DNA of 64,000 nt from Burkholderiaceae bacterium (GTDB taxonomy: Bacteria; Pseudomonadota; Gammaproteobacteria; Burkholderiales; Burkholderiaceae_C). The DNA is taken from the NCBI GenBank assembly GCA_026125795.1, contig JAHCKM010000005.1:248001-312000 (forward strand), given 5' to 3'. This document shows positions 13,825 to 54,935 of this stretch, one piece after another (position 1 is the stretch's first letter; each line of letters opens with the position of its first letter). The position numbers and the translations under genes are program-made. The notes under the pieces were generated by a model, which saw nothing but the letters and a program-made list of their open reading frames with translations, searched no databases and was not told the origin of the DNA.

Positions 13825-13905
13825 ATGCCCCCACGCGCACTGCGTTCGCTGCCCCCCGAGGGGGCGCCCGGCCTCCTAGAGGCGGCTCGTCGGAGGCTGG
13901 CATGA
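13825..13905 (+). other. GC-rich repeat element read as a 26-codon leader ORF before the enoyl-CoA hydratase gene
   Basis: A clear ribosome site (CAGGAG at 13811-13816) precedes an ATG at 13825. From it a 26-residue frame ([14 protein letters not shown]...) runs without stop and ends on the TGA at 13903-13905, which overlaps the ATG of the hydratase gene (ATGA at 13902-13905). The DNA is a copy of the palindromic repeat family of this window (GCTGCCCCCCGAGGGGGC at 13849-13866). The likely reading is a repeat inserted at the original start codon, now translated as a leader that hands ribosomes to the hydratase start. Translation is inferred. Confidence 0.5.
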
Positions 13906-27478: not shown

Positions 27479-27907
27479 GTGTTTCAAGGGACCTCGGCGC
27501 TCACCTTGGACGCCAAGGGCCGCATCGCGGTCCCGTCGCGCCATCGTGATGCGCTGATGGAGTCGGTGGGGGGGCAGCTCACGCTGACCAAGCACCCCGC
27601 CGACTGCCTGCTCGTGCTGCCGCGCCCCGCCTGGAACCAACTGCGCGAACGCCTGATGAGCCTGCCGATGGAGGCCGACGGCTGGCGCCGCATGTTCATC
27701 GGCAGTGCGGTCGACGTCGACATCGACTCCGGCTCGCGCATCCACATCTCGCCTGAGCTGCGCCGCGACGCCGGCTTGATCCGCGACGTGCTGTTGATCG
27801 GCATGGGCGGGCACCTGGAGCTGTGGGACACCGCGCGTTATGCCGCGCACGAGGCGGTGGTCAAGCAAGGCCCGATGCCCGAGGCGATCAAGAGCTTCGT
27901 GTTCTAG
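27479..27907 (+). CDS. mraZ: Transcriptional regulator MraZ
   Basis: A 142-residue protein with two SpoVT/AbrB-like MraZ repeats: [20 protein letters not shown] at the N-terminus and [17 protein letters not shown] in the second half. MraZ is a DNA-binding repressor of the mra/dcw operon; in E. coli it represses its own promoter and is counteracted by RsmH. The start is GTG at 27479, which gives the conserved M-FQGT N-terminus and the usual length; two GTGs upstream (27437, 27467) would add a non-conserved leader. A candidate operator lies directly upstream. Confidence 0.93.
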
Positions 27908-27920
27908 ACGCGCGAGATGC

Positions 27921-28847
27921 ATGCACACCTCCGTCCTGCTGCACGAAGCGATCGACGCGGTCTTCACCGACCCGGACGGCATCTACGCCGATGGCACCTA
28001 TGGGCGCGGCGGCCATGCGCGTGCGCTGCTGGCGCGCCTGTCCGCCAAGGGCCGCCTGGTGGCGTTCGACAAGGATCCGCAGGCGGTGCAGTCGGCCACT
28101 GCGGGGCCGGATGGCATTCACGACGCGCGCTTCGCGATCGAACACGCCAGCTTCACGCAGATGCGCGAGCGGCTCGCCGCGCGCGGCATCTCGCGGCTCA
28201 CCGGCGTGCTGCTCGACCTGGGCGTCAGCTCGCCGCAGCTCGACGACGCGTCGCGCGGCTTCAGCTTTCGATTCGATGCGCCGCTGGACATGCGCATGGA
28301 CACCACCCGCGGCGAGACCGCTGCGGACTTTCTGGCCCGCGCCGATGAGCGCCAGCTCGCCGAGGTGATCCGCGACCATGGAGAAGAACGGTTTGCTGTT
28401 TCGATTGCAAAGGCGCTTGTTGCTCGCCGGGAAGGCGGCCGCCCCGTTCGAACCACCCGCGAGCTGGCCGAAATCGTGGCTCGTGCGGTCAAGACCCGCG
28501 AGCCGGGCCAGGACCCTGCAACGCGCACGTTTCAGGCTCTTCGGATTTTCATCAACGCTGAACTCGAAGATCTGCAGCAGGGGTTGACCGTGGCCATGCA
28601 GTTGTTGGTACCCCACGGACGCCTGGCGGTGATCAGCTTCCACTCGCTGGAAGACCGCATCGTCAAGCGCTTCATCGCACGCGAGAGCACCCGCGAGCCC
28701 GACCGACGCGCGCCGTTCGCCGAGCCGTTGCCCACGCGGCTGAAGGCGCTGGCGCGAATCAAGCCGTCAGCGGCCGAAATCGCCGCCAATCCACGCGCGC
28801 GCTCGGCGGTGCTGCGCGTGGCCGAGCGCACGGAGGTGCAGGCATGA
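27921..28847 (+). CDS. rsmH: 16S rRNA (cytosine(1402)-N(4))-methyltransferase
   Basis: A 308-residue RsmH (MraW), which uses SAM to methylate C1402 in the ribosomal P site. Motifs include [13 protein letters not shown] at the N-terminus, the SAM loop [33 protein letters not shown] and the C-terminal [17 protein letters not shown] 27921 lies 13 bases after mraZ. The stop overlaps an ATG (28844-28847), normally the place where ftsL would start; here a 90-bp repeat array intervenes before ftsL. Confidence 0.96.
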
Positions 28848-29137
28848 GGCGATGTGTACCGAAGAGCGGCGGGCCGAGCGCGCCGCCGCTCCGGAGCCGG
28901 CCCGCCACCCCCTCGGGGGGTCGCGCGCCGCACGCGGCGAGCGGGGGGCTCACAGATGGCGGGCCGAGCGCGCGGCCGCTCCGGAGCCGGCCCGCCACCC
29001 CCTCGGGGGGTCGCGCGCCGTACGCGGCGAGCGGGGGGCTCACAGATGGCGGGCCGAGCGCGCGGCCGCTCCGGAGCCGGCCCGCCACCCCCTCGGGGGG
29101 TCGCGCGCCGTACGCGGCGAGCGGGGGGCTCACATGA
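28844..29137 (+). other. Open spacer frame through the repeat array, linking rsmH stop to ftsL start
   Basis: An ATG overlapping the rsmH stop (ATGA) opens a 97-residue frame that reads through all three 90-bp repeats and ends on a TGA overlapping the ftsL ATG (ATGA at 29134-29137). The product would be a 30-residue Arg/Pro/Ser-rich repeat, not resembling a folded protein. It is better seen as a translated spacer that preserves stop-start coupling than as a gene for a functional protein. Another frame (ATG 28852) would fuse the repeats to FtsL. Confidence 0.4.
28868..29133 (+). repeat. Tandem array, 90-bp GC-rich unit, three copies
   Basis: Copies start at 28868, 28958 and 29048; the third stops at 29133, where ftsL begins. 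Copies 2 and 3 are identical over 86 bases; copy 1 differs at two positions. Each unit holds an ACCCCCTCGGGGGGT palindrome and ends in CGGGGGGCTCAC, so the last copy supplies the purine run before the ftsL ATG. The unit length is divisible by three, so frames stay open across copies. Identity between copies points to recent amplification. Confidence 0.93.
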
Positions 29138-29418
29138 CGCGCTTGCACTTCGTGCTGTTGCTCGCGCTGATCTTCAGCTGCCTGGCGCTGGTGCAAAGCT
29201 CGTACGAGTCGCGCCGCCTGTTCAACGAGACCAACCGCGCGCACGACGAGGCCGCGCGCCTGCAGGCCGAATACAAGCGCCTCGAGGCCGAGCGCCAGGC
29301 CCAGGGCACGCACCTGCGCGTGGAGAAGGTGGCGCGCGAGAAGCTGGCGATGCGCACCGTGACCCCCGCGGTGACGCATTTCGTGGTCGACACAGCCGCC
29401 TCCGGAGTGGCCAAATGA
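29134..29418 (+). CDS. ftsL: Cell division protein FtsL
   Basis: A 94-residue bitopic membrane protein: one N-terminal helix (LHFVLLLALIFSCLALVQSS, about residues 4-23) and a periplasmic coiled coil rich in Arg/Glu/Ala (about residues 24-75). FtsL forms the FtsQLB complex that activates FtsWI for septal peptidoglycan synthesis. The start at ATG 29134 matches the short cytoplasmic N-terminus of the family. Its ribosome site is only the GGGGGG run of the upstream repeat. The frame is open upstream through the repeats to 28852, so an N-terminally extended form is formally possible. Confidence 0.92.
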   Translation: MTRLHFVLLLALIFSCLALVQSSYESRRLFNETNRAHDEAARLQAEYKRLEAERQAQGTHLRVEKVAREKLAMRTVTPAVTHFVVDTAASGVAK

Positions 29419-29543
29419 TGGGCATGAGCCGGCGGGCCGCTCCCCAGGCGACAACGCAGTTGCGGCGAAGACTCACAACTGGGCCAAGCGCTTGTGATGT
29501 CGCAGCCAATGCCGCAGCGCACAGCGCGGAGGCTCGTCGATGA
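29415..29543 (+). other. Short open spacer frame between ftsL and ftsI
   Basis: An ATG overlapping the ftsL stop (ATGA at 29415) opens a 42-residue frame (MMGMSRRAAPQATTQ...) that ends on a TGA overlapping the ftsI ATG (ATGA at 29540-29543). No similarity to known proteins is recognised. It shares the geometry of the rsmH-ftsL, mraY-murD, murG-murC and dusB-fis spacers, but its sequence matches the GC-rich repeat only loosely. Confidence 0.35.
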
Positions 29544-31327
29544 ACCGTCGCAACAGCAGCGCGGTCAGCGCGCGCAGCCTGGCCTACGCGAGCTCGCCGC
29601 TGTTGGCCTCCAAGACACCGCCGTGGCGCAGCCGCGTGCTGGTGGTGATGGTGGCGCTGGGGTTCGCGCTGTTGCTCGGTAGGGCGGTGTACGTGCAGAT
29701 CGTGGCTTCGGACTTCTATCTTGCGCAGGGCGAACGCCGCTTCGTCCACACCTTCGACGTGCCGGCCAGCCGCGGCCGCATCGTCGATCGCAACGGCCTG
29801 ATCCTGGCCACCAGCGTGGCCACCAGCACGGTGTACGCCAACCGGCAGCACTTCAAGGCCACGCCTGCGCAAAAGAAAGAGCTGCTGCGCCTGCTCGGCA
29901 TGACCAGCGCCGAGTTCGAAGACCGCATGTCGCAGGACCTGACCGAGGTCCTGCTCAAGCGGCAGGTGCCCGATGCGCAGTGGCGACAGGCGCGCGCGCT
30001 GGGCGTCAAGGGCCTGCGCGCCACGCCGGGCTACACGCGCAGCTACCCCGAGGGCGAAGCGGCGGCGCACGTCGTGGGCTTCACCGACCAGAGCGAGCGC
30101 GGCCGCGAAGGCGTGGAGCTGGCGTTCCAGAAGGACCTGGAGGGCCGCGACGGCCAGCGCGGCATCGTGCGCGACGGCGTCGGCCGCGTGGTGGACGACT
30201 ATGTCGACGCCATCGACCCGACGCCGGGGCGCGAGGTGCAGCTGTCGCTCGACACCAAGGTGCAGTTCTTCGCGTACCAGCGCGTGCGCGACGCGGTGGC
30301 CGAGCACGGCGCCAAGGCGGGCAGCGTGGTGGTGATCGACGTGATCACCGGCGAGGTGCTGGCGCTGGCCAACTACCCGAGCTTCCATCCGTCGATGCGC
30401 AGCAAGGTCAAGCAGGACCAGTTCGGCGAAGCGGCGCGCAACCGCGCGCTCACCGACGTGTTCGAGCCCGGCTCGGTGATGAAGCCGTTCGTCGCCGCGT
30501 GGGCGCTCGAGACAGGCCGGGTCAAGCCGCACACAGTGCTGTCGACCGCGTCGTTCTCGGTCGGCGGCCGGCCGATCCACGACACGCACCCGCGCGAGCA
30601 GATGACGGTGACCGAGATCGTGCAACGTTCCAGCAACATCGGCGCCGCCAAGCTGGCGATGCAGATGGAGCCGCGCGAGCTGTGGGAGATGTACACCAAC
30701 GTCGGCTTCGGCCAGCGCCCGCAGATCGAGTTTCCCGGCGCGCGCTCGGGCGTGCTGCGGCCCTATCGCAACTGGAAGCCGGTGGACCAGTCGCGCCTGG
30801 CGTTCGGCTATGGGCTGTCCGCGTCGCTGCTGCAGATGGCGCGCGCCTACACCGTGTTCGCGCGCGACGGCGAGCTGGTGCCGATCACCATGCTGCGCCA
30901 GGACCAGCCCGCCGCGGGGGTGCGCGTGCTCTCGCCGGAGGTGGCGCGCGAGATGCGCAAGATGCTGCAGCTGGCCACCGAGAGCGGAGGCGGGACCGCC
31001 ACGCGCGCGCAGGCCGTGGGCTACAGCGTCGCCGGCAAGACCGGCACCGCCCATGCGTACGACGGCGGCGAGTATGCGAGCAACAAGCATCGCGCGTGGT
31101 TCGTCGGCCTGGCGCCGGTGAGCAACCCGCGCATCGTGGTGGCGGTGATGGTCGACCAGCCGAGCCAGGGCGGGCACTTTGGCGGCGAGGTCGCGGCGCC
31201 GGTGTTCAGCCAGGTGGTGCAACAGACGCTGCGCCTGCTCAACGTGCCGCCCGACATCGAGGTGCGGCGCCAGATCGTGGCACAAACCGTGGCGCAGGCG
31301 CCGGCGGCGGCGGTCGGAGCCCGTTGA
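29540..31327 (+). CDS. ftsI: Peptidoglycan D,D-transpeptidase FtsI (penicillin-binding protein 3)
   Basis: A 595-residue class B penicillin-binding protein that crosslinks septal peptidoglycan as partner of FtsW. A cytoplasmic tail of about 32 residues precedes the membrane anchor (VLVVMVALGFALLLGRAVYV). The pedestal domain begins with the RGRIVDRNG motif. Transpeptidase motifs are SxxK with Ser312 (EPGSVMKPF), SSN at 364-366 and KTGT with Lys500. ATG 29540 has GCGGAGG upstream. The stop overlaps the murE start (TGATG), giving coupled translation. Confidence 0.97.
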   Translation: MNRRNSSAVSARSLAYASSPLLASKTPPWRSRVLVVMVALGFALLLGRAVYVQIVASDFYLAQGERRFVHTFDVPASRGRIVDRNGLILATSVATSTVYANRQHFKATPAQKKELLRLLGMTSAEFEDRMSQDLTEVLLKRQVPDAQWRQARALGVKGLRATPGYTRSYPEGEAAAHVVGFTDQSERGREGVELAFQKDLEGRDGQRGIVRDGVGRVVDDYVDAIDPTPGREVQLSLDTKVQFFAYQRVRDAVAEHGAKAGSVVVIDVITGEVLALANYPSFHPSMRSKVKQDQFGEAARNRALTDVFEPGSVMKPFVAAWALETGRVKPHTVLSTASFSVGGRPIHDTHPREQMTVTEIVQRSSNIGAAKLAMQMEPRELWEMYTNVGFGQRPQIEFPGARSGVLRPYRNWKPVDQSRLAFGYGLSASLLQMARAYTVFARDGELVPITMLRQDQPAAGVRVLSPEVAREMRKMLQLATESGGGTATRAQAVGYSVAGKTGTAHAYDGGEYASNKHRAWFVGLAPVSNPRIVVAVMVDQPSQGGHFGGEVAAPVFSQVVQQTLRLLNVPPDIEVRRQIVAQTVAQAPAAAVGAR

Positions 31328-32862
31328 TGGCGCTGCAGCGGCTCGCCGACTTCAACGACGCGGTGCAGTGGTTGCGCGCCGGCGGCGTCGGCACGCTGCG
31401 CACCGACAGCCGGCAGGTGCGCGCCGGCGATGCGTTCCTCGCCTGGGCCGGAGGGCGTCACGACGCGCGTGGCCACGTGGCCGACGCATTGGCCGCCGGT
31501 GCCGCGCGCTGCCTGGTCGACGACGCGGGAGCCGACGCGTTCGGCTTCGACGATGTCCGCATCGCCGCCGTGCCGCAGCTCAAGGCGGCCGCGGGTCTGG
31601 TGGCCGATGCCTGGTACGGCCAGCCGAGCCGGGCGCTCGAGGTGGTGGCGGTCACCGGCACCAACGGCAAGACCTCGGTGGCCTGGTGGACCGCGCAGGC
31701 CCTGAGTGCACTCGGCCGGCGCTGCGGAGTCATCGGCACGCTCGGTGTCGGCGAGCCGCCGCAGCCCGGCGACGCGTCGCACTCGCTGCAATCCACCGGC
31801 TTGACCACGCCCGACGCCGTGTTGCTGCAGGCCACGCTGCGCGACTTCGTTGCGCGCGGCTTCGCCGCATGCACGATGGAAGCCTCGTCGATCGGCATCG
31901 TCGACCACCGCCTCGCCGGCACACGCATCGCGGTGGCGCAGTTCACCAACTTCACGCGCGACCATCTCGACTACCACGGTGACATGGTCAGCTACTGGGC
32001 CGCCAAGCGGCTGCTGTTCGGCTGGCCGGGCCTGCGCGCCGCGGTGGTCAACGTCGACGACGAGCAGGGCGCCGCGCTGGCAGACGAGCTGCAAGCCGCG
32101 TTCGCGCAGCGCAGCGCGCCGGCGGTGTGGACCTATGGCATGCATGGCCCGGCGCGGCTGCAGGCGCAACGCGTGCGCCACCTGGCCGACAGCATGGCTT
32201 TCGATCTGGTCGAGGCAGAAGCCACCGTGCCGGTGCGCTGCGCGCTGATCGGTGCCTACAACGTGAGCAACCTGCTGGCCGTGGTCGGCGCGTTGCGTGC
32301 GCTCGGCATCGCGCTCGCCGATGCGGCGCGTGTCGTGCCGCAGCTCTCACCGGTACCCGGCCGCATGCAGCGCGTGGCGGCGCCCGATGGGTCGATGCCT
32401 CTGGCGGTGGTCGACTACGCGCACACGCCCGATGCGCTGGAGCATGCGCTGCTGGCCTTGCGTCCGCTGGCGCATGCACGCGGCGGCCGGCTGTGGTGCC
32501 TGTTCGGCTGCGGCGGCAACCGCGATGCGACCAAGCGGCCGCTGATGGGTGCCATCGCGCACCGTCTTGCCGACCATGTGGTGCTCACCAGCGACAACCC
32601 GCGCGACGAAAGCCCGGCGCTGATCCTCTCGCAGATCCTGGCCGGCATCCAGGGCGACGACACGGTCGACGTGATCGAGGACCGCCGCGCCGCCATCCAC
32701 GACGCGTTGAGCCGAGCCGATGCGGCCGACGTGGTGCTGCTGGCCGGCAAAGGACACGAAGAGACCCAGGAGGTGGCCGGCGTCAAGCGAGCGTTCAGCG
32801 ACGTGGCGGTGGCCGCGCAGGCGCTGGCGCTGCGTGCCAAGGCAGGAGGTCACGCCGCGTGA
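31327..32862 (+). CDS. murE: UDP-MurNAc-L-Ala-D-Glu:meso-diaminopimelate ligase MurE
   Basis: A 511-residue Mur ligase that adds the third amino acid of the stem peptide in the cytoplasm. ATP loop GTNGKTS (near residue 113), TNFTRDHLDYHGD with the carbamoylated-lysine region nearby, and the DNPRDES motif near residue 425, which marks specificity for meso-diaminopimelate rather than lysine. The ATG shares its A with the ftsI stop, and the gene overlaps murF by one base. The C-terminal GKGHEETQE segment is the family ending. Confidence 0.96.
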   Translation: MALQRLADFNDAVQWLRAGGVGTLRTDSRQVRAGDAFLAWAGGRHDARGHVADALAAGAARCLVDDAGADAFGFDDVRIAAVPQLKAAAGLVADAWYGQPSRALEVVAVTGTNGKTSVAWWTAQALSALGRRCGVIGTLGVGEPPQPGDASHSLQSTGLTTPDAVLLQATLRDFVARGFAACTMEASSIGIVDHRLAGTRIAVAQFTNFTRDHLDYHGDMVSYWAAKRLLFGWPGLRAAVVNVDDEQGAALADELQAAFAQRSAPAVWTYGMHGPARLQAQRVRHLADSMAFDLVEAEATVPVRCALIGAYNVSNLLAVVGALRALGIALADAARVVPQLSPVPGRMQRVAAPDGSMPLAVVDYAHTPDALEHALLALRPLAHARGGRLWCLFGCGGNRDATKRPLMGAIAHRLADHVVLTSDNPRDESPALILSQILAGIQGDDTVDVIEDRRAAIHDALSRADAADVVLLAGKGHEETQEVAGVKRAFSDVAVAAQALALRAKAGGHAA

Positions 32863-34247
32863 TGACGCTGACGCAAGCGCACGCGCTGCTGCCGGCCTCG
32901 GTGCTGGTGGGCGACGGCAAGATCCGCTTCGAGCGCGTGCACAGCGACACGCGTTCGCTGCGCGCGGGCGACCTGTTCGTCGCGCTGCGCGGCGAGCGCT
33001 TCGATGCGCACGACTTTCTCGCGCAGGCACGCGCCGCGGGCGCGGTGGCGGCCCTTGCGGAGCGCGGGCTGGCCGCAGATGCCTTGCCCGGCCTGCAGGT
33101 GCGCGACAGCCTGCAAGGCCTGCAGCAGATGGCGGCCGGCTGGCGCCGCCGCATGGAGCTGCCGCTGGTGGCGGTGACCGGCAGCAACGGCAAGACCACG
33201 GTGACGCAGATGCTCGGCAGCATCCTGCGCGCATGGTGGGGTGACGCGGCGCTGGTCACCGCCGGCAACCTGAACAACCACATCGGCGTGCCGCTGATGG
33301 TGCTCAGGCTGCGCCAGGACGACAAGCTGTGGCACCGCGCCGCGGTGCTCGAGCTCGGCATGAACCACCCGGGCGAGATCGCGCTGCTGGCGCAGATCGC
33401 CGCACCCACCGTGGTGCTGGTCAACAACGCGCAGCGCGAGCACCAGGAGTTCATGGCCAGCGTGGAAGCGGTGGCGATCGAAAACGGCAGCGCGATCGAA
33501 GCGCTGCCGGCAACCGGCGTGGCGGTGTTTCCGTCCGGCGACGGGCAGGCGGCGATCTGGCGCCGACAGGCGGGTGCGCGCGCGCAGCTCACGTTCGCGC
33601 GCAGCGGCAGCGCCGACGTCACAGGCGATGCGTTGTGGGTCGATGACCATTGGATGCTGCGCTTCCACAGCCCGGCCGGTGCCGCCGAATTCGCCTTGCA
33701 CGCGCCGGGCGCACACAATCTGCACAACGCGCTGGCGGCGGTCACTGCGGCGCTGGCCGCGGGTGCGCCGCTCGACGCCATCGTGCACGGGATGGAGTCG
33801 TTCCGCCCGGTCAGCGGACGCTCGCGGCTGTTGAGCTGGCAGCGCGGCACCGAGCGGGTCGTGCTGGTCGATGACAGCTACAACGCCAATCCGGATTCGG
33901 TGCGCGCGGCGATCGACCTGTTGTCGGGGCTGCAGGGCCCGCACTGGCTGGTGCTGGGCGACATGGGCGAGGTGGGGGCCAAAGGCCCGGAGTTCCACAG
34001 CGAGATCGGCGCGTATGCGAAGGAACGCGGCATCGAGCACCTGTGGGTCGCCGGCACGCTGGGTGCGCACGCCGCGAGCGCCTTTGGCGCTGCCGCGCGC
34101 CATTTTGTCGGCACGCCCGAGCTGATCGCGGCGCTGCAGCAGGCGCCGCGTTGTGCGTCGGCGCTGATCAAGGGCTCGCGCTTCATGGGCATGGAGCGCG
34201 TCGTGCGTGCACTGGTGCCGCAGGACGGGGCCTCGCATGGTCACTGA
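32862..34247 (+). CDS. murF: UDP-MurNAc-tripeptide:D-alanyl-D-alanine ligase MurF
   Basis: A 461-residue Mur ligase that completes the UDP-MurNAc-pentapeptide. ATP loop GSNGKTTVTQML near residue 107, AGNLNNHIGVPL, ELGMNHPGEI and DDSYNANPDSV are intact. ATG 32862 follows AGGAGGT at 32845-32851; a GTG one codon earlier is possible. It is tightly linked to murE. Downstream, the mraY gene is separated by an 87-base copy of the GC-rich repeat. Confidence 0.96.
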   Translation: MTLTQAHALLPASVLVGDGKIRFERVHSDTRSLRAGDLFVALRGERFDAHDFLAQARAAGAVAALAERGLAADALPGLQVRDSLQGLQQMAAGWRRRMELPLVAVTGSNGKTTVTQMLGSILRAWWGDAALVTAGNLNNHIGVPLMVLRLRQDDKLWHRAAVLELGMNHPGEIALLAQIAAPTVVLVNNAQREHQEFMASVEAVAIENGSAIEALPATGVAVFPSGDGQAAIWRRQAGARAQLTFARSGSADVTGDALWVDDHWMLRFHSPAGAAEFALHAPGAHNLHNALAAVTAALAAGAPLDAIVHGMESFRPVSGRSRLLSWQRGTERVVLVDDSYNANPDSVRAAIDLLSGLQGPHWLVLGDMGEVGAKGPEFHSEIGAYAKERGIEHLWVAGTLGAHAASAFGAAARHFVGTPELIAALQQAPRCASALIKGSRFMGMERVVRALVPQDGASHGH

Positions 34248-34334
34248 GTTGGCGCCCCCACGCTCGCTCCGCTCGCTGCCCCCCGAGGGGGCTCAGTCGT
34301 CTTGGGGCGGCCCGGCGCCGACCGAGGTGGCGCC
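34248..34334 (+). repeat. GC-rich palindromic repeat copy, murF-mraY gap
   Basis: This gap holds one of the best copies of the repeat core: CCCCCACGCTCGCTCCGCTC followed by GCTGCCCCCCGAGGGGGCTC (34256-34295). An ATG inside the murF end (34237) opens a 34-codon frame ([19 protein letters not shown]...) through it that stops at 34339-34341, just inside mraY. The 3' part supplies CGAGGTGG as ribosome site for mraY. Confidence 0.75.
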
Positions 34335-35516
34335 ATGCTGATCTCCATCGCGCAGTGGCTGCAGGCGTGGTCGCCCGAGAACCTGGGCTTCCTGCGCGTC
34401 ATCCAGTACCTGACGTTCCGCGCCGTGATGGCGGCGATGACGGCGCTGCTGATCGGCCTCGCGTTCGGCCCGTGGGTGATCCGCCGACTCGCCGAGCTGA
34501 AGATCGGCCAGCCGGTGCGCGAGTACGGCGTGCAGACGCACCTGATCAAGCGCGGCACGCCGACGATGGGCGGCGTGCTGATCCTGATCGGCGTCGGCGT
34601 GTCGACGCTGCTGTGGTTCGACTGGAGCAACCGCTTCGTCTGGATCGTGCTGCTGGTGACCTTCGGCTTCGGCACCATCGGCTGGATCGACGACTGGCGC
34701 AAGGTGGTCAAGAAGAACCCCGAGGGCATGCCGTCGGGCGAAAAGTACTTCTGGCAGTCGGTGATCGGCCTGATCGCGGCGCTGTACCTCGCCTTCAGCG
34801 TGTCGGAGACCACCAACCTGCGCGTGGTCGAGCTGTTCCTGCGCTGGGTGCAGAGCGGCTTCTCGAACGACCTGCCGCCCAAGGCCGACCTGATGCTGCC
34901 GTTCTTCAAGACGGTGAGCTATCCGCTGGGCGTGTTCGGCTTCATCGGGCTGACCTACCTCGTGATCGTCGGCGCCAGCAACGCGGTCAACCTGACCGAC
35001 GGTCTCGACGGCCTGGCCATCATGCCGGTGGTGATGGTCGGCTCGGCGCTCGGCGTGTTCGCGTACGTGGTGGGCAGCTCGGTGTATTCGCGCTACCTGC
35101 TGTTCCCGCACATCCCCGGCGCCGGCGAGCTGCTGATCTTCTGTGCCGCGATGGCCGGCGCGGGGCTGGCGTTTCTTTGGTTCAACGCGCATCCGGCGCA
35201 GGTGTTCATGGGCGATGTCGGCGCGCTCGCGCTCGGCGGCGCGCTCGGCACGATCGCGGTGATCACGCGCCAGGAGATCGTGCTGGCGATCATGGGCGGC
35301 GTGTTCGTGATGGAAGCGCTGTCGGTGATGATCCAGGTGAGCTGGTTCAAGTACACCAAGCGCAAGTACGGCGAGGGCCGGCGCATCCTGTTGATGGCGC
35401 CGCTGCACCACCACTTCGAGAAGAGCGGCTGGACCGAGACGCAGGTGGTGATCCGCTTCTGGATCATCACGATGCTGCTGTGCCTCATTGGCCTGGCGAG
35501 CCTGAAGCTGCGGTGA
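34335..35516 (+). CDS. mraY: Phospho-MurNAc-pentapeptide-transferase MraY
   Basis: A 393-residue integral membrane enzyme with about ten helices that transfers phospho-MurNAc-pentapeptide to undecaprenyl phosphate, giving lipid I. Conserved acidic motifs are visible: [22 protein letters not shown] and [13 protein letters not shown], then [20 protein letters not shown] 34335 gives the family N-terminus with CGAGGTGG upstream. The stop (TGATGA) overlaps an ATG that opens the spacer frame leading to murD. Confidence 0.97.
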
Positions 35517-35590
35517 TGAACGACGCACGGCCGTTCCGAAGTCGTTCGCTCCCCCCGGGGGACGGCGCGCAGCGCCAAGGGGTGACATGA
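35516..35590 (+). other. GC-rich repeat element as open spacer frame, mraY-murD junction
   Basis: An ATG overlapping the mraY stop (TGATGA) opens a 24-residue frame ([19 protein letters not shown]...) ending on the TGA at 35588-35590, which overlaps the murD ATG (ATGA). The DNA carries a shortened repeat core (TCGTTCGCTCCCCCCGGGGG). ATGAA occurs at both edges, as a target-site duplication would. The last bases, CAAGGGGTGAC, act as the murD ribosome site. Confidence 0.55.
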
Positions 35591-37155
35591 ATGCCATGAT
35601 CCAATCCCCGCTGCACGGTCAACAGGTTCTGGTGCTAGGGCTCGGCGAGTCCGGCCTGGCGATGGCGCGCTGGTGCGCCCGCCAGGGCGCCAGCGTGTCG
35701 GTGTGGGACTCGCGGCAGGTGCCGCCGCAGCTCGCGGCATTGCGCGCCGCGCTGCCCGATGTCGCGCTGCGCAGCGGCGAGCTCGGCCCCGATGCGCTGG
35801 AAGGCGTGAGTCTCGTGCTGAAGAGCCCGGGCCTGAGCCCGCGCGATGCGCGCATCGTGCCGCTGTTGCAGGCGGCGCACGAGCGCGCCATGCCGGTGGC
35901 CGGCGAGCTCGAGCTGTTCGTGCAGGCGCTCGAGCAGCTGCGCGCCGAGCGCGACCATGCGCCGCAGGTGCTGGCGGTCACCGGCACCAACGGCAAGACC
36001 ACGACCACCGCGTTGACCGCGCTGCTGGTCGAGCGCGCCGGCCGCAGCGTCGTGGCCGCCGGCAACATCAGCCCGACGATGCTCGACACGCTGATGCAGC
36101 GGCTCGACGAGAACACGCTGCCGCAGGCGTGGGTGCTCGAGCTGTCGAGCTTCCAGCTCGACGGCGTGCTCGGCTTCGAGCCGCACGCCGCCGCGGTGCT
36201 CAACCTGACTCAGGATCACCTCGATTGGCATGGCGACATGGCCGCTTATGGCGCGGCCAAGGCACGCATCTTCGGCGAGCGAACGATCGCGGTCGTGAAC
36301 CGCGACGATCCGGCGGTCGACGCGATGGCGAGCGCGCCATTGCCGGCGCCGCCGCCCAAGCCCGGCGCCAAACCGGGCAAGCCGCGGGTGCCCAAGCCGG
36401 TGCAGCGCAACACGGTCCGCTTCGGCCTGAGCGCGCCGACGCATCCGGGCGACTATGGCCTCGTCACCGAAGGCGGCATGGCCTGGCTGGTGCGCGCCAT
36501 CCCCGACGAGCCCGGCACCAAACGGAAAAAGGACGAGCCGGCCGAGATCCATCTGCAGCGCCTGATGCCGGCCGATGCGTTGCGCCTGCGCGGCCGTCAC
36601 AACGCGGCCAACGCACTGGCCGCGCTGGCGCTGGCCACCGCGATCGGCTGCCCGCTGGCACCGATGTTGCACGGCCTGCGCGAGTACGCCGGCGAGCCGC
36701 ACCGCGTGCAGCCGATCGGCCGGGTTGGCGAGGTGGAGGCGTTCGACGACAGCAAGGGCACCAACGTCGGTGCGACCGTCGCGGCGCTGGTCGGGCTGGG
36801 TGCCGACAAGGCGCCGTCGAAGCTGGTGGTGATTCTCGGCGGCGACGGCAAGGGCCAGGACTTCAGCCCGCTGGTCGAACCGGTGGCGCTGCATGCGCGT
36901 GCGGTGGCGCTGATCGGCCGTGACGCGCCGGCGATCGAACAGGTGCTCGCCGGCGTCGACATCCCCAAGCGGCGCCACGACGACCTGCATGCGGCCGTGC
37001 GCTGGTGCTTCGAGCAGGCACGCGGCGGCGATGCGGTGCTGCTGAGCCCGGCCTGCGCCAGCCTCGACATGTTCCGCAACTACGGGCATCGCGCCGAGGT
37101 GTTCGTGCAGGCGGTGCACGACCTGGCGGCCGAGCGTGGGGAGATCGAGACGTGA
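35587..37155 (+). CDS. murD: UDP-MurNAc-L-alanine:D-glutamate ligase MurD
   Basis: A 522-residue Mur ligase that adds D-glutamate. It has the N-terminal [12 protein letters not shown] motif, ATP loop GTNGKTTTT near residue 137, [10 protein letters not shown], and the C-terminal [12 protein letters not shown]. It is clearly longer than E. coli MurD (438 residues): the middle domain has an Ala/Pro/Lys-rich stretch (near residues 254-275) and further inserted sequence before the conserved [14 protein letters not shown], something seen in Burkholderiales enzymes. The stop overlaps the ftsW GTG start. Confidence 0.96.
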
Positions 37156-38414
37156 AGGCCGAGCTCCCCTTCTTCGGCCTGCGCGGCTGGCTCGACCGCT
37201 GGCGCGGGCTGCGCGCGCCGCAACGGCGGTCGCTGCCGGTGCGCAGCGGCCTCGAGCGCGTGACCGCCAGGCCGGCGCACATCTCGGGCTTCGACCAGCC
37301 GCTGGTGCTGCTGGTGGCGGCGCTGCTCGCGTTCGGCTTCGTGATGGTGTTCTCCGCCAGCGTGGCGCTGCCCGACAGCCCGAAGGGCGCGCGTCTCGGC
37401 GAGTTGCACTTCCTGACGCGACACGGCTTGTCGATCGTGATCGGGTTGGTCGCGGCACTGCTGGCGCTGCAGATTCCGATCGCGGTGTGGGAAAAGTGGG
37501 CGCCGTGGCTGTTCGTCGGCGCGCTGGTGCTGCTGGCGCTGGTGCTGGTGCCGCACATCGGGCTGATGAAGAACGGCGCACGCCGCTGGATCCCGCTGGG
37601 CTTGCTGAACTTCCAGCCCAGCGAAGCCGCCAAGCTGGTGATGACGATGTACGCCGCCAGCTACATGGTGCGCAAGATGGACGTCAAGGAAGACTTCATC
37701 AAGGCGGTGTGGCCGATGGCGATGGCACTCGCGGTGATCGGCCTGCTGCTGCTGGCCGAGCCCGACATGGGCGCCTTTGTCGTCATCGCGGCGATCGCGA
37801 TGGGCATCCTGTTCCTTGGCGGCGTCAACATGCGCATGTTCCTGCTCGTGTGCGCGGTGCTGAGCCTGGCTTTCGTCGCGATGATCGCTTTCAGCGACTG
37901 GCGCGCCGATCGCATCTGGGCCTGGCTCGACCCGTGGAACGAAAAGTACGCGCGCGGCCGCGCCTACCAGCTCACGCATTCGCTGATCGCATTCGGCCGC
38001 GGCGGCATCTTCGGCGAGGGGCTGGGCGGCAGCGTCGAGAAGCTCAACTACCTGCCCGAGGCGCACACCGACTTCCTGCTCGCGGTGATCGGCGAGGAAC
38101 TGGGCTTCATTGCGGTGGCCACCGTGATCGTGGCGTTTTTCTGGCTCACGCGTCGCATCTTCGTGATCGGCCGCCAGGCGATCGTGCTCGATCGTGTGTT
38201 TGCCGGTTTGATGTGCCAGGGCATCGGCATCTGGATCGGCGGCCAGGCGTTCATCAGCATCGGCGTCAACCTGGGCGCGCTGCCGACCAAAGGGCTGACC
38301 ACGCCGCTGCTGAGCTTTGGCGGGTCGGCGCTGCTGATGAATCTGATCGCGCTGGCGATCGTGGTGAGGATCGATTTTGAGAATCGCCAGCTCATGCGCG
38401 GAGGCCGGGCGTGA
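37152..38414 (+). CDS. ftsW: Septal peptidoglycan glycosyltransferase FtsW
   Basis: A 420-residue SEDS protein with ten predicted membrane helices after a cytoplasmic N-terminus of about 50 residues. It polymerises lipid II at the septum together with FtsI. Conserved features: [20 protein letters not shown] at helix 1, [26 protein letters not shown], and the loop [18 protein letters not shown]. The GTG at 37152 overlaps the murD stop (GTGA) and the stop overlaps the murG GTG, so the three genes are translationally linked. Confidence 0.96.
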
Positions 38415-39493
38415 GTCAACGCCATCTCGTCGTCATGGCCGCCGGCACGGGTGGCCACGTGTTCCCCGGCCTGGCGGTCGCGCGCGAGGTGCAGCGGCGC
38501 GGCTGGAGCGTGAGCTGGCTCGGCACGCGTAACGGCATGGAAAATCGTCTCGTGCCGCCCGCCGGCATCGCGCTCGACGCGATCGGCTTTTCCGGGCTGC
38601 GCGGCAAAGGCGTGCTCGGCGCGATGACCGGCGGCGTGCGCATGCTGAAGGCGTTCTGGGATTGCCTGAGGATCCTGCGCGCGCGCGGCACGAGCGCGGT
38701 GCTCGGCATGGGCGGCTACGTGTGTTTTCCGGGCGGCCTGATGGCCTCGCTGCTCGGCAAGCCGCTGGTGCTGGTCAACGCCGATGCGTCGCTGCTGCTG
38801 TCGACGCGCTCGCTGCTGCCGGTGGCCGACGCGGTGGCCTTCGGCTTCGACGGGCCGGCCGCGGAGAAGACCCGACACGCACTGGTCACCGGCAACCCGG
38901 TGCGCGCCGAGATCGAGGACCTGCCGTCGCCGACCGAACGTTTTGCCGGCCGCACCGGCCCGCTCAACGTGCTGGTGGTCGGCGGCAGCCTGGGCGCACG
39001 CGTGCTCAATGAAACGATGCCCGCAGCGCTGTCGCGCCTCGACCCATCGAAGCGGCCCAACGTGGTGCATCAAAGCGGGATCGCGCACCTCGACGCCGTG
39101 CGTGCCACCTATGCCACGCTGCGTGTGCAAGCCGAGGTGCTGCCGTTCATCGACGACATGCCCGCACGACTGGCGGCCTGCGACGTGATCGTCTGCCGCG
39201 CCGGCGCGGTGACGGTGAGCGAGTTGTGCGCGGCCGGCGTGGCCAGCGTGCTGGTGCCGCTGATCGTCAGCACCACCTCGCACCAGCGTGACAACGCGGC
39301 GTGGATGGCGCAGCGCGGCGCGGCGATCCACCTGCCGCAGGACCAGCTGACGCCCGAGTCGCTGGCCACGCTGCTGTCGGAGCTTGACCGCGACAAGCTG
39401 CGCGCCATGGCGGAACAAGCGCGCCTGCTGGCACGACCGCAAGCCGCGGCGCGTGTCGCCGATGCGATCGAGAAGCTGGTGGCGGCCGCATGA
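38411..39493 (+). CDS. murG: UDP-GlcNAc:lipid I GlcNAc transferase MurG
   Basis: A 360-residue peripheral membrane glycosyltransferase that makes lipid [15 protein letters not shown] near residues 12-24, [12 protein letters not shown], the hydrophobic patch region, [11 protein letters not shown] and the C-terminal donor site [15 protein letters not shown] are intact. The GTG start overlaps the ftsW stop by 4 bases. Its own stop overlaps an ATG (39490) that opens a 29-codon spacer frame before murC. Confidence 0.96.
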
Positions 39494-39579
39494 AGCACGC
39501 CGTCACGCACATCGCCCGTTTCGTGGCGCATCGACGAATGCCGACGAAGCGGCTCGTGGCCTGCGGAGGCCGCGCATGA
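39490..39579 (+). other. Duplicated murC start as a 29-codon spacer frame, murG-murC junction
   Basis: An ATG overlapping the murG stop (ATGA) begins [20 protein letters not shown] and runs for 29 codons to a TGA that overlaps the true murC ATG (ATGA at 39576-39579). Its first residues mimic MurC ([11 protein letters not shown]), with third-base differences (AAG/AAA, GCC/GCG, ATC/ATT), so it looks like an old duplication of the murC 5' end. The spacer supplies CTGCGGAGG as the murC ribosome site. It is open in the same geometry as the repeat-derived spacers. Confidence 0.5.
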
Positions 39580-40991
39580 AACACGCGGTCAAGCACATTC
39601 ATTTCGTCGGCGTGGGCGGTGCCGGCATGAGCGGCATCGCCGAGATCCTGCACAACCTGGGCTACACCGTGTCGGGCTCGGACCTGACCGACAGCGCGAC
39701 CACGCGCCGGCTGGCTCAACTCGGCGTGCGCGTGTCGATCGGGCACGACGCTGCACACGTTGCCGGCGCCGAAGCCGTGGTGACCTCCACCGCGGTGAAG
39801 GACGACAACCCCGAGGTGTTGGCGGCGCGCGCCGCGCGCATCCCGCTGGTGCCGCGCGCGGTGATGCTGGCCGAGCTGATGCGCCTGAAGCAGGGCATCG
39901 CGATCGCCGGCACGCACGGCAAGACCACCACCACGTCGCTGGTGACCAGCGTGCTGCACGAAGCCGGCGTCGATCCGACGTTCGTGATCGGCGGCAAGCT
40001 CAACAGCGCCGGTGCGCATTCGCGCCTGGGCGAGGGCACCTACATCGTGGTCGAGGCCGACGAGAGCGACGCGTCGTTCCTCAACCTCAATCCGATCCTG
40101 AGCGTGGTCACCAACATCGACGCCGACCACATGGAGACCTACGGCCACGACGTCAGCCGGCTGCGCCAGGCGTTCGTCGACTTCCTGCACCGCATGCCGT
40201 TCTACGGCGCCGCGGTGGTGTGCGGCGACGATCCCGGCGTGCAGGCGATCGAGGCCGACATCGGTCGTCCGATCATCCGCTACGGGCTCGGCGACGACGT
40301 GCACGTGCGCGCCGAGCGCGTGCAGGCGCTGCCCGGCGGCCGCATGCGCTTCGTCTGCCGGCGCCGCAACGGCGCCGCGATGGCGCCACTGGAGATCACG
40401 CTCAATCTCGCCGGCGTGCACAACGTGCGCAATGCGCTGGCCGCGATCGCGGTGGCCACCGAGCTGGAGCTGCCCGATGCGCCGATGGTCAAGGCGCTGG
40501 CCGAGTTCACCGGCGTGGGCCGGCGCTTCCAGCGCTACGGCGAGCTGCCGGCGCGCGACGGTGGCCGCTTCGCGCTGATCGACGACTACGGCCACCACCC
40601 AGTCGAGATGGCGGCGGTGCTGGAGGCCGCGCGTGGCGCGTTCCCCGGGCAGCGCATCGTGCTGGCGTTCCAGCCGCACCGCTACAGCCGCACGCGCGAC
40701 TGCTTCGAGGATTTCGTCAAGGTGCTCGGCCAGGCCGACGCAGTGCTGCTGACCGAGGTCTATGCAGCCGGCGAGCAGCCGATCGTCGCTGCCGACGGCC
40801 GTTCGCTGGCGCGCGCGTTGCGCGTGGCCGGCCATGTGGACCCGGTGTTCGTCGACGACGTGGCCGCGCTGCCGCAGGCGGTGATCGAGCATGCGCGCGC
40901 GGGCGACGTGGTGATCGCGATGGGCGCGGGCTCGATCGGCCAGGTGCCGGCGCAGTTGGTCGAGCGGCTCGGTGTGGGAGGCGGCACATGA
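39576..40991 (+). CDS. murC: UDP-MurNAc:L-alanine ligase MurC
   Basis: A 471-residue Mur ligase, first of the stem-peptide ligases. [15 protein letters not shown] near residues 10-24, ATP loop [10 protein letters not shown] near residue 112, [20 protein letters not shown] and DDYGHHPVE are intact. ATG 39576 has GCGGAGG upstream and the conserved [12 protein letters not shown] start. A near copy of this start lies 86 bases upstream. The stop overlaps the ddl ATG (ATGA). Confidence 0.96.
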
Positions 40992-42025
40992 CCCGTCGCG
41001 CTGCAACGTCAAGGAAGACCGTAACCGCGCCGTCGATCGACGCCAAGACGCTCGGGAAGACCGCCGTGCTGATGGGCGGAAGCTCGGCCGAGCGGGAGAT
41101 CTCGCTGCTGTCGGGCAATGGGGTGCTCGCTGCGTTGAAGTCCGCCGGCGTCGACGCGCAAGCGTTCGATCCGAGCCAGCGCGACCTGGCGGACCTGAAG
41201 CGCGAAGGCTTCGCGCGCTGCTTCATCGCGCTGCACGGCCGGCACGGCGAAGACGGCACGGTGCAAGGTGCGCTCGAGCTGCTCGGCATCCCATACACCG
41301 GCTCCGGCGTGATGGCCTCGGCGATCGCGCTCGACAAGGTGATGACCAAGCGGGTCTGGCTCGCCGAAGGGCTGCCGACGCCGCGCTGGGTGCGGCTCGA
41401 CGCCGACGATCAATCGCGCGAACGCGTGCGCACCGTGCCCGACGACCTCGGCCTGCCGTTGATCGTGAAGCCGCCGCGCGAAGGCTCGTCGATCGGCGTC
41501 ACCAAGGTGATGGGCTATTCGCAGATGCAGGACGCGGTGGCGCTGGCCGCACGCTACGACCCCGACGTGTTGTGCGAGGAGTTCATCGAAGGCATCGAGG
41601 TCACCTGCCCGGTGCTCGGCGAGGGCGCGACGGCACGGGCGCTGCCGGTGGTGCGCATCGCCGCACCCGAGGGCAAGTACGACTACCAGAACAAGTACTT
41701 CACCGACGAGGTGCACTACCACGTGCCGAGCGGTCTGCCGGCCGCCGAGGAGGCCGAGATCCAGCGCATCGTGCTGGCGGCCTACCGTGCACTCGAGTGC
41801 CGAGGGTGGGGTCGCGCCGACCTGATGGTGCGCTCCAGCGACCGCAAGCCGTTCCTGCTCGAAATGAACACCTCGCCCGGCATGACTGGGCATTCGCTGG
41901 TGCCGATGTCGGCCAAGGCCGCCGGCATCGCGTACGAGCAGCTGTGCCTGATGCTGCTGGCCTCGGCGCGTCTCGACGCGCCGCAGGCCTCGAGGCTCGG
42001 CCCACCACCGAAGGCAGGAGCCTGA
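40988..42025 (+). CDS. ddl: D-alanine:D-alanine ligase
   Basis: A 345-residue ATP-grasp enzyme that makes the D-Ala-D-Ala used by MurF. The family start [20 protein letters not shown] begins near residue 20, so this protein has an N-terminal extension of about 18 residues (Arg/Thr/Lys-rich). [40 protein letters not shown] and the metal site [15 protein letters not shown] follow. The tyrosine loop reads [13 protein letters not shown] overlaps the murC stop. Confidence 0.95.
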
Positions 42026-53448: not shown

Positions 53449-53685
53449 CTATTTGATCAACTTGTGGTCGGTGAGCTTGCGCCGCAGCGTGTTGCGGTTG
53501 ATGCCGAGCCACTCGGCGGCTTTGCTCTGGTTGCCGTCGGCTTGGCGCATCACCACCTCGAGCAGTGGCTTTTCCACAGCGCTCATGATCATCTCGTGCA
53601 CACCGTTCGGCTGGGTGCCGCGCAGGTCGTCGAAGTAGCGCTGCAGCGTGTCGCGCACGCACTCCTCGAGGTGCCTTCTGCTCAT
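53449..53685 (-). CDS. fis: Fis family DNA-binding protein
   Basis: A 78-residue nucleoid-associated protein. The C-terminal helix-turn-helix [20 protein letters not shown] is the Fis signature; the N-terminal beta-hairpin of enterobacterial Fis is shortened, as in other betaproteobacteria. It bends DNA and tunes growth-linked transcription. ATG 53685 (ATGA) overlaps the end of a repeat-derived spacer frame that starts on the dusB stop. The ribosome site CGCGGAG lies inside the spacer. Confidence 0.93.
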
Positions 53686-53750
53686 CGACGAGACTCCGCG
53701 CTGCGCGCTGCGATGCGAGCGCCCTTCGGGGCGGCCGGGCGGGGGCTCAT
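53682..53750 (-). other. GC-rich repeat element as open spacer frame, dusB-fis junction
   Basis: On the minus strand an ATG overlapping the dusB stop (ATGA at 53750) opens a 22-residue frame (MSPRPAAPKGARIAARSAES...) that ends on the TGA of the ATGA holding the fis start. ATGAGC is present at both edges. The sequence CCGCCCGGCCGCCCCGAAGG belongs to the repeat family. The geometry equals that of the dcw spacers although the operon is unrelated. Confidence 0.5.
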
Positions 53751-54857: not shown

Positions 54858-54935
54858 ATGCGGCTCCCACGCTCGCTCGACACGCTGCCCCCCGATGACG
54901 CTTATCGGCGGCAGCGGGCCGCCGGGCCTTGCTGA
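54858..54935 (+). other. GC-rich repeat element as short leader frame before the YqaA-type gene
   Basis: An ATG at 54858 opens a 25-residue frame (MRLPRSLDTLPPDDAYRRQR...) through a repeat copy (CCCACGCTCGCTCGACACGC, then TGCCCCCCGAT); its TGA directly abuts the ATG of the membrane protein gene (TGAATG). A GATAAT about 15 bases upstream of the leader ATG could be its -10 box. Same arrangement as at 13.8 kb, with contact instead of overlap. Confidence 0.42.

Follow-up and report, generated by a model that had tools for sequence, protein, structure and literature searches.

The window analyzed here is a stretch of 64,000 nucleotides (nt) from the genome of a Burkholderiaceae bacterium (assembly GCA_026125795.1, contig JAHCKM010000005.1, positions 248,001 to 312,000; positions below are counted from the first letter of the window). 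It carries a division and cell wall (dcw) gene cluster in which several gene junctions are occupied by spacers with a characteristic geometry: a start codon overlaps the stop of the upstream gene and opens a frame, termed a relay below, which ends on the TGA of the ATGA containing the downstream start. Relays are general in the dcw clusters of this group of organisms, and their reading phase is strongly biased towards the one that links the two genes.

Spacers of the dcw cluster and other junctions of the window

The genes flanking the relays, all on the + strand, are rsmH (27921..28847; Pfam Methyltransf_5 (MraW)), ftsL (29134..29418; FtsL), ftsI (29540..31327; Transpeptidase), mraY (34335..35516; MraY_sig1), murD (35587..37155; MurD-like_N), murG (38411..39493; Glyco_tran_28_C) and murC (39576..40991; Mur ligase domains), with Pfam matches that agree or are compatible with the gene names. 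The original prediction, made from the letters of the window, proposed relays at four of their junctions, and in each the frame is indeed open and ends on the TGA of the downstream ATGA. Between rsmH and ftsL, the ATG at 28844 overlaps the rsmH stop (28845-28847) and opens a frame of 97 codons (28844..29137, +) whose TGA (29135-29137) lies inside the ATGA of ftsL, with a distance of 290 nt to the ftsL ATG at 29134. This relay contains three tandem copies of a repeat (class B below; 28868..29137, +), and because each copy is 90 nt long the frame is kept through the array. The ftsL-ftsI relay (29415..29543, +; 42 codons) begins with an ATG at 29415 over the ftsL stop (29416-29418), terminates at the TGA 29541-29543 inside the ATGA of ftsI and lies 125 nt from the ftsI ATG at 29540. 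At the mraY-murD junction the relay (35516..35590, +; 24 codons) starts at 35516, over the mraY stop (35514-35516) and 71 nt ahead of the murD ATG at 35587, and consists of a class A repeat whose right end, which is G-rich (AAGGGG), precedes the murD ATGA. The murG-murC relay (39490..39579, +; 29 codons) has its ATG at 39490 over the murG stop (39491-39493) and its TGA (39577-39579) inside the ATGA of murC, 86 nt separating the two starts (murC ATG at 39576); its left end (39490..39516, +) is a diverged copy of the murC 5'-end (MKHAVTHI versus MKHAVKHI; 67% identity over the first 33 nt).

A fifth dcw spacer, murF-mraY, was absent from the original prediction. It is 87 nt long, carries a repeat copy of class D and has no start over the murF stop; an ATG within murF (34237) instead opens a frame (34237..34341, +) whose TGA (34339-34341) overlaps the mraY start, making it a relay by a looser rule. 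Outside the cluster, the dusB-fis junction (Pfam Dus and Fis-type HTH_8) contains a relay of 22 codons on the minus strand (53682..53750), which is class A-like by eye and runs open over the 65 nt from the ATG at 53750 to that at 53685, as had been proposed. The sixth proposed case, a class D repeat leader with a frame of 26 codons (13825..13905, +) before an enoyl-CoA hydratase-type gene (Pfam ECH_1; start at 13902), fits in part: it is open, in phase over its 77 nt and ends in ATGA, but its first start is ATGC and overlaps no called upstream stop. A further class D-like leader frame of 25 codons (54858-54935, +) ends in a TGA directly followed by the ATG (54936) of a VTT domain gene. RNA folding of the four dcw spacers is no better than that of shuffled versions (z 0.84, -0.34, 0.32 and -1.39), and an Rfam search of 27800-41100 gave no match above the gathering score, with a single match at E 0.15.

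The six distances all leave a remainder of 2 on division by 3, which was originally presented as unlikely by chance. This count is no test, because the cases were picked for fitting and the described geometry is possible only in this phase (phase 2); the phase rule itself, in contrast, holds far beyond chance in relatives and in a sample of the same genome.

Phase of spacers in related dcw clusters and across the genome

The dcw clusters of 81 genomes, i.e. the window and 80 relatives, were compared; 20 of the relatives come from 54 genomes with a match, and 60 more were chosen by MurG similarity and contig room among the matches listed, out of 296. By MurG, the nearest named relative is a metagenome-assembled genome labelled Ideonella sp. 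(81%), and further near ones are Ideonella, Rubrivivax, Rhizobacter, Methylibium and Aquabacterium. Downstream starts were set by homology to genomes where the junction in question is tight; four junctions gave no usable match and some lay outside the retrieved stretches. Among the 708 junctions judged, 580 overlap or have a gap of at most 20 nt (294 at -4, 130 with gaps of 0-20 nt and 92 at -1), and a tight junction is therefore the usual state. Another 125 have a spacer of 21-600 nt.

Relays are called strict when all their links are overlaps of -4 or -1 and the final start is that of the downstream gene itself. By this definition 59 of the 125 spacers are strict relays, with the links seen in termination-reinitiation pairs, and a looser rule adds 16; at least one relay is present in 37 of the 81 genomes. 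The rsmH-ftsL relay of the window stands outside these counts, the ftsL start having been placed at 28852 and the junction tallied as tight. When bases are deleted in the middle of the spacers, the 59 strict relays fall to 13-20 for one base and 2-7 for two bases, whereas 55-59 survive the removal of three. In 35 of the 125 spacers a same-frame start is present at the upstream stop, and these were set aside in a further analysis of 90 spacers, which comprise 57 strict relays, 13 near relays and 20 failures; here, deletions directly after the stop leave 20 (one base), 11 (two) and 55 (three) strict relays. Since a strict unit is by definition 2 mod 3 in length, the informative point is the rarity of strict relays after a phase shift.

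Two-ended spacers of 35-600 nt, which have a start/stop overlap at each end, show the same bias: phases 2, 1 and 0 stand at 49:8:4 and 56 of the 61 are relays (binomial p 6e-14, a value that ignores the kinship of the rows), or at 46:8:4 of 58 without the window (p 9e-13). In four of the five non-relays, a further start in the same frame lies at the upstream stop or close to it.

Beyond the cluster, we sampled the window's own genome at planned rather than random intervals; together with the window, 60 stretches of 20 kb make up 61 pieces that cover 1.264 of its 6.57 Mb. A custom gene caller with a minimum of 80 codons, which therefore misses small genes such as fis, gave 1172 genes. The original prediction had also called for the phase distribution to be set against random, and here too it is borne out: two-ended gaps of 21-400 nt show phases 2, 1 and 0 at 50:18:17 (p 1.3e-6), as against 35:36:37 in control gaps lacking a start at the upstream stop. 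One piece (L114; own genome C2:820001-840000) yielded a 14-member intergenic cluster which turned out to be one repetitive gene of great length that the caller had apparently placed on the wrong strand; this piece supplies 2 of the 85 two-ended gaps and was excluded from the repeat test below. Leaving out both it and the window, the ratio is 43:17:16 of 76.

Spacers were regarded as repeat-bearing if they belong to the largest BLAST cluster, of 93 intergenic regions. Among such gaps of 35-400 nt, 30 of 64 are single relays; breaking the phase reduces this number to 7 and 7-8, whereas the removal of three bases leaves it at 30. When the window is excluded, the figures are 25 of 55 versus 4 and 8. 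In repeat-free gaps of the same size range, single relays number 25 of 308, versus 11-15 with the phase broken. Thus, the phase signal extends beyond the window and resides mostly in repeat-bearing spacers, about half of which are not single relays.

Sources of the spacer DNA, chains and independence

Judged by sequence, the spacers have three recognizable sources, namely dispersed palindromic repeats, copies of the ftsW 3'-end and copies of the murC 5'-end. The repeats fall into four classes, with 11 (A), 5 (B, of which three are the tandem copies of the window), 10 (C) and 27 (D) matches in 1.264 Mb. Class A is that of the mraY-murD spacer and class B that of rsmH-ftsL, copies within each being much alike; classes C and D resemble the same superfamily read in reverse. 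Strict relays occupy 5 of 8 class A gaps and all 3 class B gaps, and are few in classes C (2) and D (1 in sense), where others meet the looser rule only. In co-directional gaps the class A and B copies are all in sense orientation (9 of 9 and 5 of 5), and the merged repeat cluster stands at 51:26; an initial tally, with 39-40 in sense and 2 in antisense, was dropped because of the apparent reverse relationship of C and D. Of the 10 pattern matches to the class A right end in the whole genome, 9 continue with ATGA and one with another ATGN; by eye, most class A copies are flanked by DTGA, with a start-type TGA on both sides. No fresh insertion was seen.

Several features of classes C and D were observed alongside. 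Class C copies (e.g. L134 11229-11315 and L111 13657-13571) start a few bases from the upstream stop, and the class also occurs between convergent genes, unlike class A in the sample. Class D (e.g. window 34254-34325) seems by eye to have a right-half hairpin in which the stem letters vary between copies with pairing kept, and which often ends in TGA ahead of the next start. Class D leaders are further found between divergent genes (L137 5941-5869, minus strand; L104 11170-11242, plus strand), where, again by eye, a frame begins at an ATG just 5' of the repeat and runs in phase up to the start of the following gene. An origin of the repeats from the transposases (RAYTs) associated with repetitive extragenic palindromic (REP) elements was rejected, the own genome (98.9% complete) having 0 matches to PF01797, as against 5 of 14 control genomes that were positive.

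A copy of the ftsW 3'-end with a Shine-Dalgarno-like GGAG is present in 7 of 17 ftsW-murG relays, with a score attained by 0 of 200 shuffles. Copies of the murC 5'-end lie to the left in murG-murC spacers; the 23 units concerned start with MKH and match over a run of 16-52 nt. Most of these are close copies, with those of L018 (42%) and L066 (52%) weak over 33 nt. The own murC is nearest or tied in just 7 of the 23. No clear murG 3'-end copy was found in the 24 murG-murC relays (best 1 of 200), nor was a source found for the ftsL-ftsI spacer of the window.

Nine dcw relays are chains of two or three units. These include all eight phase-1 relays and the sole phase-0 relay, and every unit in them is in phase 2. 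Four chains are of equal units (86+86 twice, 74+74 and 83+83), whereas others are unequal, e.g. 221+83 and 38+83+83. In the ftsW-murG spacer of a genome of another family (L020), two 113-nt units, near-identical by eye, each run from ATGA to ATGA in phase 2; this chain was counted as a failure, with the murG start there set further downstream. Altogether, the 67 relay units have 30 distinct lengths. Placed on a tree, the 57 strict relays lacking a same-frame alternative start require at least 50 changes over nine junctions, on a quick tree from MraY, MurG, MurC and MurD, themselves dcw proteins, whose errors add changes. Relays are scattered over the tree.

Proposed coupling relays, rival explanations and known systems

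We propose, with a probability of about 0.72, that the spacers act as coupling relays. The ancestral junction was probably a tight start/stop overlap, into which DNA would have been added in the form of a palindromic repeat, a copy of the upstream 3'-end with its Shine-Dalgarno sequence and start, or a copy of the downstream 5'-end. Lineages would have tended to retain those additions in which an open frame led from a start codon at the upstream stop to a stop over the downstream start. Ribosomes ending the upstream gene could then begin anew on the mini-frame and, having translated it, terminate on the following start, where they would reinitiate once more. A relay is thereby predicted to preserve both the coupling and the ribosome cover of the RNA over 31-430 nt that would otherwise break the coupling, its frame holding the gap at -4 or -1 on both ends, and longer spacers may represent chains of two or three relays. 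According to one study, native coupling in Escherichia coli is 40-80% lower at a distance of +14 nt and almost abolished at +38 nt (PMC10666635); hence, an untranslated spacer of 70-300 nt would be expected to uncouple the flanking genes. From the phase pattern we infer that the spacers are translated, that ribosomes reinitiate and that selection is responsible; the course of change from tight junctions and a mobility of the repeats are likewise inferences. The bias suggests that continuous translation over such junctions tends to be preserved in evolution.

The original prediction went further, holding that insertions survive only if they are translated into the next start. The comparative data and the genome sample strongly support the association, but "only" is too strong: in the genome sample, 34 of the 64 spacers with a repeat fail to form a single relay even by the looser rule, five of the 61 two-ended dcw spacers are non-relays, and a few insertions appear to be fused in frame to the downstream gene (L044, where the repeat is apparently fused to MurG, and L023). 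Apart from the 34 repeat-bearing spacers just mentioned, several other observations weigh against the proposed coupling role. Shuffled spacers of the same length still give a mean of 30 strict relays in 90 (sd 3.2), versus the 57 observed, so that part of the signal is the openness of GC-rich DNA. Strict relays are scarce at ftsI-murE (1 of 8), murE-murF (0 of 5) and murF-mraY (0 of 6), although 11 of the spacers located there carry a frame that stops within about 11 nt of the start. The tree gives the number of changes and not their sign, i.e. gain versus loss. Finally, 400 kb of a second genome (G005) gave a weak result, with strict relays at 3 of 16 versus 1 and 0, single relays at 5 of 16 versus 1-2 and 0 with the phase broken, and two-ended phases 2, 1 and 0 at 10:2:7 (n=19, p 0.065), the control being 7:9:8. 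This genome points weakly in the same direction, with too few cases.

Among the alternatives, the one that retains most weight, though we consider it improbable, is that translation of the spacer mainly shields the RNA from Rho-dependent termination, with the downstream gene initiating by itself at a Shine-Dalgarno-like right end. In keeping with this, class A repeats and the spacers of the window have right ends that are G-rich ahead of the start, and in-frame fusions, which would likewise cover the RNA, apparently occur in a few genomes. However, the stops of the frames mostly lie exactly on the downstream start, as the excess of strict over looser relays indicates; polarity alone needs no such stop position, though the ATGA may simply be inherited. 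The relays may serve termination-reinitiation, protection from polarity or both.

Somewhat less probable is that the phase stems from the elements themselves: a repeat of fixed length (2 mod 3) with its own DTGA end, inserting beside a DTGA, would produce the same geometry in every copy. The likeness of the copies within classes A and B, the start-type TGA seen by eye on both sides of most class A copies, the class A right ends that run on as ATGA and the precedent of the mycobacterial interspersed repetitive units (MIRUs) all agree with such an origin. Against it stand the diversity of unit lengths, the chains that obey the phase rule unit by unit, and the relays derived from murC 5'-end copies (a few of them weak) and ftsW 3'-end copies, neither of which is transposon-like.

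A role of the spacers in encoding functional small proteins is quite unlikely. Several genomes do have similar murG-murC peptides, but this likeness lies largely within the copied murC start, and no shared peptide was noticed at the other junctions, though without a systematic search. Chance, i.e. fitting cases picked from GC-rich DNA that is open in most frames, accounts for the strict relays that the shuffles do reach and is refuted as an explanation of the whole by the excess over those shuffles, by the loss of most relays upon phase-shifting deletions and by the even phases of the controls.

If the coupling relays are real, the spacers would amount to dozens of natural replicates of one experiment, in which DNA is placed between two coupled genes, and the biased phase would make both the distance travelled by ribosomes after termination and the worth of keeping the coupling testable. 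They further predict many translated mini-frames overlooked by gene callers. A wider reading, to which we give slightly less than even odds, is that Burkholderiales have a MIRU-like system which is a convergent rule rather than a single family, and by which unrelated repeats, mobilized with no Y1 transposase, and new gene-end copies alike become phase-2 relays at coupled junctions. On this reading, translational continuity would be a strong general constraint on additions inside an operon, one that has been tried about 50 times by the fewest-changes count.

A literature search of titles and abstract openings, with most subscription papers beyond reach, found no account of such relays in Burkholderiales among the records listed; several known systems share parts of their architecture. 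In termination-reinitiation at ATGA or TGATG overlaps, the coupled pairs show the same -4 or -1 overlaps as the relay ends (PMC6728339, PMC10666635); those pairs join two real genes, whereas here a mini-frame without evident function sits between them. The GTAG and CGTC REP elements, with their RAYT (Y1) transposases, are likewise short, palindromic and dispersed, many of them between same-direction genes (PMC3733652). The repeats here differ in often abutting the downstream start, often in phase, and, the genome being without a PF01797 match, they are not RAYT-driven REPs by that test. The enterobacterial ERIC/RU and, as mentioned in the same source, the Rickettsia palindromic elements are also small mobile repeats that carry open frames; they are described (PMC2759123) as in-frame protein fusions and not as separate frames linking two genes.

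A close parallel is that of the MIRUs, which lie in a single orientation relative to transcription and use DTGA insertion sites. A 2025 review (PMC12548453) describes them as repeats that seem to be mobile and are inserted at start codons, where their small open reading frame is coupled at -4 nt, probably with little harm to the gene. MIRUs and the relays of classes A and B are alike in being short dispersed repeats with a small frame that overlaps the flanking genes at -4, and because the MIRUs have this same architecture the principle put forward in the original prediction is not new. They differ in that the repeats described here belong to another phylum and comprise several classes in apparently both orientations, a comparison made by architecture, and in that some relays derive not from a repeat but from the copied end of an adjacent gene. 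The mechanism itself is known; if our proposal is correct, what mycobacteria show would also hold in a second phylum and for DNA with no evident mobility.

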